Assembly (NCBI GenBank): GCA_018400535.1
Contig: JAGYMQ010000009.1
Span: 1-41,089 of the forward strand
DNA from: Candidatus Cloacimonadota bacterium
GTDB taxonomy: Bacteria; Cloacimonadota; Cloacimonadia; Cloacimonadales; TCS61
Direction: 5' to 3'
Length of the DNA: 41,089 bases
Under the pieces are notes generated by a model, which worked only from the letters and a program-made list of their open reading frames with translations, did no database searches and had not been told where the DNA came from. Below are positions 26,062-41,089 of the stretch, one piece after another (within the stretch, counting starts at the first letter, position 1; each line of letters begins with the position of its first letter). A program made the translations under genes and the position numbers.

Positions 26062-26082
26062 TGTCAGATGAGGTTAATGAAG

Positions 26083-26772
26083 ATGAGAAATTTAAAAATT
26101 ATTAAAGATTATTTATTGCATCCTGCTGGCTCTGTCTTGATCGAGCAAGGTAAAACAAAAGTTATTTGCACTGCGATTATCCAGGATAAAGTTCCTCCTT
26201 TTCTACGGAATGCAGAACCAGCGCAAGGTTGGATCACGGCTGAATACAGCATGCTGCCAGGTGCTACTAATGAAAGATTTCGGCGCGAACGCTCTAAAGT
26301 GACGGGTCGAACTGCAGAAATTCAAAGATTGATCGGCAGAGCTTTGCGAGCTGTCGTTGATCTGACTAAAATTCCTGGCTATCAGATCATCATTGATTGC
26401 GATGTGATCCAAGCTGATGGCGGAACACGGACAGCCTCGATAACTGGCGGTTGCGTCGCTCTTTATGATGCTTTCCAAAAAATGCTGAAAGAAAAATTGA
26501 TCGATGAAAATCCGCTAATCGAATTGGTAGCGGCGATCAGCGTTGGTTTCCAAAATGGCAAAGTGATCGCTGATCTTGATTATGAACAAGACTCACAAGC
26601 TGACGTTGATATGAATATTGTGATGACAGAAAGTGGTGAATTTGTAGAGATCCAAGGCACAGCAGAAGGAAAAACCTTCGATGACAAAATGCTGCAAGAA
26701 ATGTTGAAAAATGCCAGAGAATCGATTGCAAAACTGATCGAGCAGCAGAGAAAATTATATTCTGAAAAATGA
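26083..26772 (+). CDS. rph: Ribonuclease PH
   Basis: This phosphorolytic 3'-5' exoribonuclease trims tRNA precursors and forms a hexamer of the PNPase fold. GSVLIEQGKTKVICTA, AEYSMLPGATNERFRRER, the GRTAEIQRLIGRALRAVVD block and DCDVIQADGGTRTASITGG (phosphate- and metal-binding residues) are all intact, as is the C-terminal EIQGTAEGKTFD. The N-terminus is short: the family's 'R-x-DGR' lead-in is absent and the protein begins about ten residues late. In-frame starts are 26068, 26077 and 26083; I prefer 26083 because GAGG (26070-26073) is nine bases before it. It overlaps selA by four bases (ATGA), so the two are coupled. Confidence 0.93.
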   Translation: MRNLKIIKDYLLHPAGSVLIEQGKTKVICTAIIQDKVPPFLRNAEPAQGWITAEYSMLPGATNERFRRERSKVTGRTAEIQRLIGRALRAVVDLTKIPGYQIIIDCDVIQADGGTRTASITGGCVALYDAFQKMLKEKLIDENPLIELVAAISVGFQNGKVIADLDYEQDSQADVDMNIVMTESGEFVEIQGTAEGKTFDDKMLQEMLKNARESIAKLIEQQRKLYSEK

Positions 26773-28166
26773 AAACAGAAATTAAAATAATGAACGAAGA
26801 ACTAAGAAAATTGCCAGCAGTTGATAAGATATTACAAAGCAGAGAATTACAAGATTCGATCGAAGAATTCGGAAGAGATCTCTGCAAATATGCTATCCAA
26901 ACTATCCTGTCTGAAGAAAGGAATTACATTCAAAAAGGAAATACTTCTTTTTCATCACATCAAAGATTTTCCAAGATAAAATCGATCATAGAAAAAATTA
27001 CTCGATCTTCTTTGAAACCTGTTGTAAATGCTACCGGTATAATTTTACACACGAACCTGGGAAGAGCACCTTTGGGAGAAAAGGTTCTGAAAGAATTACA
27101 ACCAATAATCGAAAATTATTCCAATGTGGAATTTGATTTGGAGCGGGGAAGACGCGGACAACGAAATATTCATATATCAAATCTATTGCAAGCAATTACA
27201 AAAGCAGAAGATGCACTCGTGGTAAATAATAACGCCGCTGCTGTAATGCTTGTGCTGAAAACTTTTGGCGAAGATGCTGAAGTCATTATTTCACGAGGAG
27301 AATTGATCGAGATCGGTGGTTCTTTTCGTATCCCAGATATCATGCGGGCAAGTGGAGCGAAAATGGTCGAGGTTGGCACCACAAATCGCACAAATCTGGA
27401 AGATTATCAGCGCGCGATCACTTCCAATACGAAGATCATTTTGAAGGCACACAAATCAAATTATTTCATTGGCGGTTTCACTGAAGAAACTGAATTGAAA
27501 GAACTGGCAGAACTGGCTCACAAAAACGATCTTCTTTTCTTTTTTGATATGGGTTCAGGTTTGTTGAGAAAACCGGCAAATTTACCTCTCAAAGATGAAC
27601 CTGACGTCTTTTCAGCCTTAGAAAATGGCGTCGATCTTGTCAGTTTCAGTGGCGATAAATTATTGGGCGGACCACAAGCCGGAATCATTTGTGGAAAGAA
27701 AAGATACATTGAAAAATTGGCAAAAGCTCCAATGATGAGAGCATTACGAGTGGGAAAGCTTACGATATCTGCCTTGATTGCCGTGATGCGTTCTTATCTT
27801 CACGATTGTGTTTCTCAGGAAATTCCTCTTTTCCAATTGCTGGCTCGCGAAGAAAATGAACTTGATGATCTTTCTCAGAAAATGGCTGCTGCTTTTAAAA
27901 AATATGAGATAGATTTTTCCGTTAAAAATGATAAGGCAAAAGTGGGCGGCGGTTCACTGCCAAAGCTTGAATTGACCACAAAAGTTATACGATTGGAAAA
28001 ATTGCCAGCAGAACTTTCTGCCAAAGAAATTTTTTTCCAATTACTAAAACTTGAAAAACCTATCTTGACAATTCTCCGTGAGGGCGCAATTCATCTTGAT
28101 TTGAAAACAATATTTGAAAAAGATATTGAATATATTGCTGAAAAAGTTGCGAAGATCTTGTATTAG
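26769..28166 (+). CDS. selA: L-seryl-tRNA(Sec) selenium transferase SelA
   Basis: SelA converts seryl-tRNA(Sec) to selenocysteinyl-tRNA(Sec) with selenophosphate, forming a large homodecameric PLP enzyme. The 465-residue length is standard. The N-terminal LRKLPAVDKIL, the VVNATGIILHTNLGRAPLG block, SNVEFDLERGRRGQR and the PLP lysine K297 in FSGDKLLGGPQAGI are all present. The first ATG overlaps the rph stop (ATGA); an internal ATG at 26790 that gives MNEELRKLP is an alternative start. Its presence means the organism decodes UGA as selenocysteine in some genes; selB, selC and selD are not in this window. See the candidate selenoprotein at 40654-40911. Confidence 0.97.
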   Translation: MKTEIKIMNEELRKLPAVDKILQSRELQDSIEEFGRDLCKYAIQTILSEERNYIQKGNTSFSSHQRFSKIKSIIEKITRSSLKPVVNATGIILHTNLGRAPLGEKVLKELQPIIENYSNVEFDLERGRRGQRNIHISNLLQAITKAEDALVVNNNAAAVMLVLKTFGEDAEVIISRGELIEIGGSFRIPDIMRASGAKMVEVGTTNRTNLEDYQRAITSNTKIILKAHKSNYFIGGFTEETELKELAELAHKNDLLFFFDMGSGLLRKPANLPLKDEPDVFSALENGVDLVSFSGDKLLGGPQAGIICGKKRYIEKLAKAPMMRALRVGKLTISALIAVMRSYLHDCVSQEIPLFQLLAREENELDDLSQKMAAAFKKYEIDFSVKNDKAKVGGGSLPKLELTTKVIRLEKLPAELSAKEIFFQLLKLEKPILTILREGAIHLDLKTIFEKDIEYIAEKVAKILY

Positions 28167-39936: not shown

Positions 39937-40152
39937 TCATTTTCCCGCTCCTAGCCAGATATTTTTGGAAGTGAGATAATGTAACCTTGCAAATCTGTTC
40001 AATTGCCCATTTTCCCAAGATCCAATAAATAGATTTTTCTTATCCCGTACTCATTAATCGAAAATCTGAGAAACATAATCATCACCTCCCCAGATATTTT
40101 CTGAAATATTAAGAATTTCCTTTTTATCGTCAGCTTCGATTCTGCGAATCAT
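39937..40152 (-). pseudogene. GNAT N-acetyltransferase remnant
   Basis: The frame from ATG 40152, which overlaps the stop of the upstream metallopeptidase gene (ATGA), reads MIRRIEADDKKEILNISENI, then WGGDDYVSQIFD, then two consecutive stops TAA TGA (40056-40051), then VRDKKNLFIGSWENGQL, FARLHYL and NIWLGAGK before a third stop. GNAT proteins with an N-terminal 'IR-a---D---I--i---iw-G-DY-p--fdeW' and a following 'vGe--gk-vGfa-l' show the same order. The two stops replace the likely Glu-Trp (GAA to TAA and TGG to TGA, one base each). The acetyl-CoA-binding half is missing. It was evidently once coupled to the metallopeptidase gene. Confidence 0.7.
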
Positions 40153-40697
40153 AATAATCTCAGGTTAAATTTCCTTAAATAATCATTTTTCAGTTTGGGA
40201 TTGGGAACAAATTTTGCCAGCTCCTGCCAGAATTCTGGTTGATGATTTTTGATCTTGGTGTGAACTAACTCGTGCATAATGACATAATCGATCAATTCAA
40301 TAGGGAAATGCAGCAATTTGATATTGAGATTTATGTTATTTTTGGAAGAACAGCTGCCCCACCGAGTTTTTTGCTTGCGGATAGTGCAGCGATTGATTGG
40401 AAAATTGTATTTTTTTGCCAGATAAAATGTTCTATCTTTGAGCGTCTGCTTATTTTTTTCTGTAAAAACGATATTTCGTTTGGTAAATTGTTTTGTCATC
40501 AGATTTTTCTCTTTGAATAAAGCCAATTGTTGATATATCCATTTTTCCTTACTTTGTAGGAACTTACGTGATTCTTCGAGAGGGACAAGCGAGGGACGAG
40601 CTACGACGATTTTGTTTTCATCAAGGATTTTTATATAGATCTTTTTTGAACCTTTATGAATGCGATGAATCACTTTTATTTCTGTGTTTTGTTTCAT
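40149..40697 (-). CDS. YgjP-like (DUF45) metallopeptidase
   Basis: The 182-residue putative zinc metallopeptidase belongs to the SprT/YgjP-like group, whose substrates are unknown. The active site is H142-E143-x2-H146 in MHELVHTKIKNHQPEFW, with H152 and a downstream acidic residue; KTRWGSCSSKNNINLNIKL is the characteristic 'RWGSCS' segment before it. The N-terminal region (WIYQQLALFKEK) is the usual helical half. The ATG has no strong ribosome site and lies 44 bases inside the upstream candidate selenoprotein gene, in another frame, so it probably depends on coupling. Its stop overlaps the start of the GNAT remnant. Confidence 0.88.
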   Translation of the reverse strand: MKQNTEIKVIHRIHKGSKKIYIKILDENKIVVARPSLVPLEESRKFLQSKEKWIYQQLALFKEKNLMTKQFTKRNIVFTEKNKQTLKDRTFYLAKKYNFPINRCTIRKQKTRWGSCSSKNNINLNIKLLHFPIELIDYVIMHELVHTKIKNHQPEFWQELAKFVPNPKLKNDYLRKFNLRLL

Positions 40698-40911
40698 TTC
40701 TATTTTTCTGCTTGTTTTGTTTTTTCCTTCGTAAATTATCTATGAAAGGAGATAGGAGAACAAAGGCGAGAAAAGCTCCGATAAAAACGTTCGACCAAAC
40801 GTTTGAAACAGCGGGTCAGCCACCAGCTCTGCAGCCGATAAATTTATGGTACAACCAACCAATCGCGCCACCGATCATTATAAGCAGAATGTAAAGAAAA
40901 TAAAATTTCAT
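40654..40911 (-). CDS. Candidate selenoprotein: small DUF6132-like membrane protein with in-frame TGA
   Basis: The frame runs from ATG 40911, which shares one base with the preceding stop (TAATG), to TAA 40654-40656. It encodes 85 residues if the single in-frame TGA (codon 32, complement of 40816-40818) is read as selenocysteine. Before it come MKFYFLYILLIMIGGAIGWL (helix 1) and FIGCRAGG; after it PAVSNVWSNVFIGAFLAFVL (helix 2), then a basic tail RRKKQNKQK. Related small membrane proteins, as I recall the DUF6132 family, have GC-x-x-G-x-C-P-x-x-x-N; the TGA falls exactly on the second cysteine, making C27-x4-U32 a likely redox pair. A SECIS-like hairpin follows the TGA (separate entry), and selA is encoded at 26769. 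No pipeline translating TGA as stop would find it. Confidence 0.8.
40785..40804 (-). promoter_or_regulatory. Bacterial SECIS-like hairpin
   Basis: On the minus strand AAACGTT (40804-40798) pairs fully with AACGTTT (40791-40785) around a six-base loop TGGTCG. The loop holds GGUC, as does the E. coli fdhF SECIS loop (AGGUCU), which SelB recognises. The G-G-U lies 20-22 bases after the TGA; in fdhF it is 19-21. The hairpin lies within the coding frame, as bacterial SECIS elements do. Confidence 0.75.
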
Positions 40912-41089
40912 TATTTTATCATCAGCATTTTATTTCTGGCGATTGTTTTTCCATCTGCTTTCAATTGATACAAATATACTCCGCTGCTGACCGATTTATT
41001 GTTCTCATCTCGTCCGTTCCAGGTTTTTGTCATTCTGGATCCTTCGACTGAGCTCAGGGCAGATTTTGTCGAAAGATGAGAACTATGAC
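40911..41089 (-). CDS. C-terminal end of a secreted protein with FlgD/T9SS-like sorting module (5' end outside window)
   Basis: Only the last 58 residues are seen. TWNGRDENNKSVSSGVYLYQ followed by LKADGKTIARNKMLMIK is the classic end of an FlgD-like Ig or type IX 'por' sorting domain (W-G-D--G--v-sGvY-y-l--------kk---ik). The protein is therefore expected to be exported and attached outside the cell. Its stop codon TAA shares a base with the ATG of the candidate selenoprotein, so the two are cotranslated or at least cotranscribed. Just upstream in the frame is a repeat-derived stretch (41029-41080) unlike the rest of the domain. Confidence 0.78.
   Translation of the reverse strand, partial: HSSHLSTKSALSSVEGSRMTKTWNGRDENNKSVSSGVYLYQLKADGKTIARNKMLMIK
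41031..41075. repeat. REP-like palindromic repeat within coding sequence
   Basis: The segment contains TTCGAC (41043-41048), the perfect palindrome TGAGCTCA (41049-41056) and GTCGAA (41068-41073), so it folds as a nested inverted repeat. Sequences of the type 'CATTCTG-GATCCTTCGACTGAGCTCAGG' recur as dispersed elements in many genomes, from memory. Only one copy is in this window, so multiplicity is not shown here. Confidence 0.5.

Follow-up and report, generated by a model that had tools for sequence, protein, structure and literature searches.

A small reading frame on the minus strand of this bacterial contig is broken by a single TGA, and a short hairpin lies directly behind it. Is this TGA a stop codon or a selenocysteine (Sec) codon, and does the hairpin serve to recode it? 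The window analysed here is the whole stretch of 41,089 nucleotides, for which the first-pass annotation had proposed a candidate selenoprotein gene with an internal SECIS element of fdhF-like geometry. We favour, with a probability of about 0.95, the reading that the hairpin is a functional bacterial SECIS within the coding sequence of a Sec-encoding DUF6132 gene, whose SelB-dependent Sec insertion would yield an 85-residue two-helix membrane protein. The features concerned are collected in Table 1.

Table 1. Positions in the window of the putative Sec gene, its predicted elements and related genes.
Feature	Position	Strand	Description
Predicted Sec-containing DUF6132 gene	40654..40911	(-)	ATG 40911-40909; 85 codons with one in-frame TGA; TAA stop 40656-40654
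Cys27 codon	40831..40833	(-)	invariant partner Cys of the C-x4-U motif
Predicted Sec-UGA codon	40816..40818	(-)	residue 32; at the position of the second invariant DUF6132 Cys
Putative bacterial SECIS hairpin	40785..40804	(-)	arms 40804-40798 and 40791-40785; closing U-G 40797/40792; apical GGUC 40796-40793
YgjP-like metallopeptidase gene	40149..40697	(-)	downstream neighbour; overlaps the end of the Sec gene
selA, L-seryl-tRNA(Sec) selenium transferase	26769..28166	(+)	Sec machinery, same window

An in-frame TGA in a small DUF6132 gene

The minus-strand ORF 40911-40657 is open through its single TGA, and the start of the gene overlaps the stop codon of the preceding one (TAATG). The predicted product, MKFYFLYILLIMIGGAIGWLYHKFIGCRAGGUPAVSNVWSNVFIGAFLAFVLLSPFIDNLRRKKQNKQKNRNETKHRNKSDSSHS, has 85 residues, of which residues 1-70 served as the query in homology searches. 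Against the Pfam family DUF6132 (PF19628) it scores 19.8 bits (E 6.2e-4), under the cut-off of 23.2; several orthologues pass this cut-off (31.9 bits for one of the same genus), and the window protein aligns with its orthologues over the whole length in a 24-row alignment. The GC-x4-C motif of the family, between two hydrophobic helices, is seen here as GCRAGGUP (C-x4-U). The residue-32 column holds Cys or Sec in all 24 rows and the upstream Cys is invariant. A single-sequence structure model (pLDDT 78, pTM 0.48; trustworthy for the helix pattern only) places helices at residues 2-30 and 35-69 with Sec32 in a four-residue turn; no related protein was found among solved structures.

A query of the genome contigs with the single protein found no relative, whereas an alignment-based scan did. 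The DUF6132 protein is present in 32 of 195 related genomes; 21 of the holders have TGA at the corresponding codon and the other 11 have Cys. Both the TGA and the hairpin, at fixed spacing, occur in 20 further genomes, and one Acidobacteria MAG (L088/L156), from another phylum, carries the same pair. The closest named records are Cloacimonadota, including Tenebribacter MAGs. Past the TGA the frame is conserved as protein, with differences at codon positions 1, 2 and 3 of 0.41, 0.13 and 0.63. The proposal of a selenoprotein gene is thus upheld by the alignment of the TGA with Cys, by TGA homologues with a conserved downstream frame and by the complete Sec machinery of the host (see below). The TGA almost certainly encodes selenocysteine in a small membrane protein of family DUF6132 that recurs in many Cloacimonadota.

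Two apparent TGA readings (L124 and L144) were rejected as ordinary stops past the gene end. G102/L045 was not counted as a Cloacimonadota member: its 4.8-kb contig has 62.5% GC and belongs to a bin in which neither SelB nor tRNA-Sec exceeds the cut-off, so that the contig is probably foreign. This sequence was excluded from the covariation alignment (A2) and included among the 22 sequences of the shuffle totals. The contig (C134) carries a Sec-type DUF6132 (L181), and the family of its bin is mostly without SelB. In the window itself, positions 40998-41086 hold a 13-nt inverted repeat at the contig end, near a repeat-like stretch, which may have broken the assembly.

Geometry and conservation of the hairpin

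The stem arms AAACGUU and AACGUUU are complementary over the full 7 bp and enclose the loop UGGUCG (40797-40792); RNAfold adds a U-G closing pair, giving an 8-bp stem around a GGUC tetraloop. The perfect 7-bp stem and six-base loop with GGUC noted in the first-pass annotation are therefore present at the position given there. Its placement of GGU 20-22 nt past the TGA also holds, as does the spacing of 19-21 that it gave for fdhF, for which we compared a stretch with a 100% match to annotated fdhF in E. coli records. Its caution that the palindrome AAACGTTT could allow alternative folds was not borne out, as the centroid fold is the hairpin and orthologues with AAUGCUU-GGUC-AAGCAUU retain the hairpin without the AAACGTTT palindrome.

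Published criteria for bacterial SECIS elements (bSECIS) describe an apical loop of 3-9 nt on an upper stem of 4-16 bp, 16-37 nt from the Sec-UGA to the apical loop, a G among the first two loop nucleotides (most often GG or GU) and a region energy of at most -7.5 kcal/mol. The window element has a 4-nt loop on 8 bp (or a 6-nt loop on 7 bp), GGUC in the loop, a UGA-to-loop distance of 18-19 nt that is equal in all Sec orthologues, and an energy of -8.2 kcal/mol over 47 nt. By these measures the predicted element is an ordinary bacterial SECIS. Among all 2062 TGA triplets of the window (both strands, all frames), ten are followed at 16-37 nt by a Watson-Crick stem of at least 7 bp whose loop has G in its first two positions, and the TGA studied here is the sole case among those ten with GGTC in the loop. 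The hairpin alone is only moderately stable (-5.0 kcal/mol), and folding energy z-scores of 0.13 (47 nt) and -1.52 (20-nt hairpin) are not unusual and hence uninformative. Since folding energy alone is unremarkable, the case rests on comparative evidence.

The hairpin is found at identical, gap-free spacing in all 22 Sec sequences, with loop GGU in 21; in G018 the loop deviates (GGAC) and two of the upper pairs are broken. Across orthologues the arms are exchanged, from AACGUUU-GGUC-AAACGUU to AAUGCUU-GGUC-AAGCAUU, and in G021 to CACGUUU-GGUC-AAGCGUG. In the covariation alignment 95.2% of cells are paired and three of the seven stem pairs show double changes; such changes affect 13 cells, compared with 3.2 ± 2.2 in shuffles. 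Covariation reaches 0.323 against 0.203 ± 0.026, and the signal is lost on sliding the partner arm. The covariance check suggested earlier for this stem thus gave compensatory changes in orthologues, together with a conserved TGA and loop GGU. An alignment of Cys forms, with G039 and the distant G176 left out, showed no covariation signal.

Could the TGA be an ordinary stop, or the mark of a decaying pseudogene, and the hairpin a chance product of the repeated codons for NV-W-SNV? In favour of this, 16 of the 26 window ORFs end in TGA, more than in any other stop, and about five of the seven pairs are favoured by the amino-acid repeat by itself. Because the protein repeat itself favours pairing, synonymous codons were re-drawn as a control with the protein held fixed. 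The 22 Sec sequences form 146 pairs, far above the shuffles (mean 95.1, sd 4.7, maximum 113), with a summed energy of -111.1 against -20.8 ± 5.6, counts that are not to be read as probabilities since the sequences are related by descent. The corresponding figures for Cys forms are 37 pairs against 30.0 ± 2.7. Third-codon-position differences amount to 0.22 in the hairpin codons versus about 0.63-0.70 elsewhere in the gene (0.65 upstream, 0.63 downstream). Furthermore, the TGA and hairpin are conserved in 22 genomes, the constraint downstream is of the coding type across genera, and an in-frame stop within 29 codons past the TGA occurs in none of 20 orthologues. A chance origin is accordingly very improbable, and these comparisons argue that the hairpin is under selection as RNA.

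Selection on the RNA could also reflect a conserved mRNA element with a Sec-independent role, be it in stability, in pausing or in regulating ygjP downstream. The Sec gene overlaps ygjP and the neighbourhood is conserved: relatives of ygjP adjoin DUF6132 in 14 of the loci compared, and the surroundings of Sec-type genes comprise ygjP, a GNAT acetyltransferase, an MFS transporter and a nitroreductase. However, the hairpin persists at loci with a gene other than ygjP downstream (L069, L075 and L078), and it is tied to the TGA, being missing from Cys homologues of the same phylum. The one exception, G039 (L024/L072), has the codon TGT, a motif one codon shorter and an intact stem, but its loop has changed from GGUC to GGGC, so that the only Cys form to retain the stem has lost the loop U. 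It is placed beside G012 within a group of Sec forms in a tree of short sequences, much of which is poorly resolved. G039 is a recent Sec-to-Cys revertant in which the stem was kept and the loop U lost. A Sec-independent role thus has very little probability left to it.

Selenocysteine machinery and proposed mechanism

The genome itself encodes tRNA-Sec (62.1 bits), SelB (369 bits), SelA (537 bits) and SelD (360 bits). The selA gene lies about 13 kb from the Sec gene and overlaps the end of an RNase PH gene (26068-26772). SelD of this genome (L152, C6) is itself Sec-type, with an in-frame TGA (VKAAGUAGK) followed by the hairpin AAGUCC-GUC-GGACUU (6-7 bp, GUC loop). A scan of the window for other long frames split by one TGA gave none resembling a known selenoprotein, as judged by eye. 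A Cloacimonetes-type tRNA-Sec has been published, which already implied Sec use in Cloacimonetes (PMC5330540).

SelB and tRNA-Sec are both over the cut-off in 18 of the 21 TGA genomes, the named exceptions being two bins that are incomplete and G102 with its probably foreign contig. G001 and G003 (86% and 73% complete) have the TGA form with neither SelB over the cut-off nor tRNA-Sec, and no SelB was seen in G195; missing contigs may account for these gaps. Reading of UGA throughout as an amino acid other than Sec would give the same open frame, but it is the least probable account of all: TGA ends 16 window ORFs, tRNA-Sec, SelA, SelB and SelD are all present and the TGA is aligned with Cys.

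Under the favoured reading, that of a SECIS-directed Sec codon, SelB with Sec-tRNA(Sec) would bind the apical GGUC loop, some 19 nt past the UGA, and selenocysteine would be delivered at that codon, a recoding to which the comparative evidence points and for which the machinery genes are present. The ribosome would then continue to give the two-helix membrane protein with its C-x4-U motif in the turn. The RNA element probably maintains the Trp-Ser dipeptide of Sec forms (UGG UCN), whose bases supply its GGUC loop.

Function, origin and comparison with known systems

In other phyla thioredoxins make up 10 of the 42 neighbours scanned around Cys-type DUF6132 genes, and AhpC/TSA proteins, rhodaneses and pyridine nucleotide-disulphide oxidoreductases are also frequent. 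In a genome of the same genus the Cys-type gene has two thioredoxins directly downstream and a glutaredoxin further on. Given these redox-gene neighbours, a membrane thiol/selenol redox role is the best guess; we consider the chances about even that the protein is a small membrane-bound redox partner of thioredoxin- or peroxiredoxin-type proteins.

Three Acidobacteriota loci (L178, L179 and L180, in G242, G267 and G229) have a DUF6132 with TGA (CAGSTUGITGNP) and no GGUC hairpin; a different GC-rich structure lies downstream, and all three genomes have SelB while two have tRNA-Sec. They possibly represent a second, independent gain of Sec. A broader proposal, which we hold tentatively and at slightly less than even odds, is that DUF6132 constitutes a new family of selenoproteins with more than one gain of Sec (with the GGUC hairpin in Cloacimonadota and, separately, with another downstream structure in these Acidobacteriota), and that the SECIS fixes Trp-Ser as loop codons until loss of Sec frees them.

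A 2026 review lists 119 bacterial selenoprotein families (PMC13188914). DUF6132 is absent from its 119-family table, NCBIfam has no model matching the window protein, and no mention of DUF6132 as a selenoprotein was found in the literature searched, subscription papers and supplementary files lying outside the search. The Sec-DUF6132 family therefore appears to be uncatalogued. It would add to the bacterial selenoproteome a family that gene callers miss, as they would cut it at residue 31 and its length is just 60-90 codons. It also offers a membrane selenoprotein that is very small and open to testing, with Cys relatives that adjoin thioredoxin and rhodanese genes, and its Sec and Cys forms, together with the single fresh revertant, amount to a natural experiment on SECIS requirements.

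The Cys form of DUF6132 (PF19628) is likewise a small two-helix protein with a GC-x4-C motif, and the predicted Sec stands exactly at the second Cys. Cys forms mostly have an SNPY-like sequence after the motif and no hairpin, whereas Sec forms have NxWS, encoding the loop. With the catalogued bacterial selenoprotein families (PMC13188914) the protein shares the Cys/Sec pair, a redox-type motif and a bSECIS. The window element falls within the bSECIS model (bSECISearch; Fig. 2A of PMC13188914) throughout, with a loop of 4-6 nt and a stem of 7-8 bp. Like the SECIS of E. coli fdhF it is a stem-loop that directly follows the Sec-UGA and carries GGU in its apical loop, at +20 to +22 here and +19 to +21 there. 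It differs from the fdhF element in having no bulged base in the upper stem and in its simpler, A/U-rich stem of 7-8 bp, and its host gene is unrelated.
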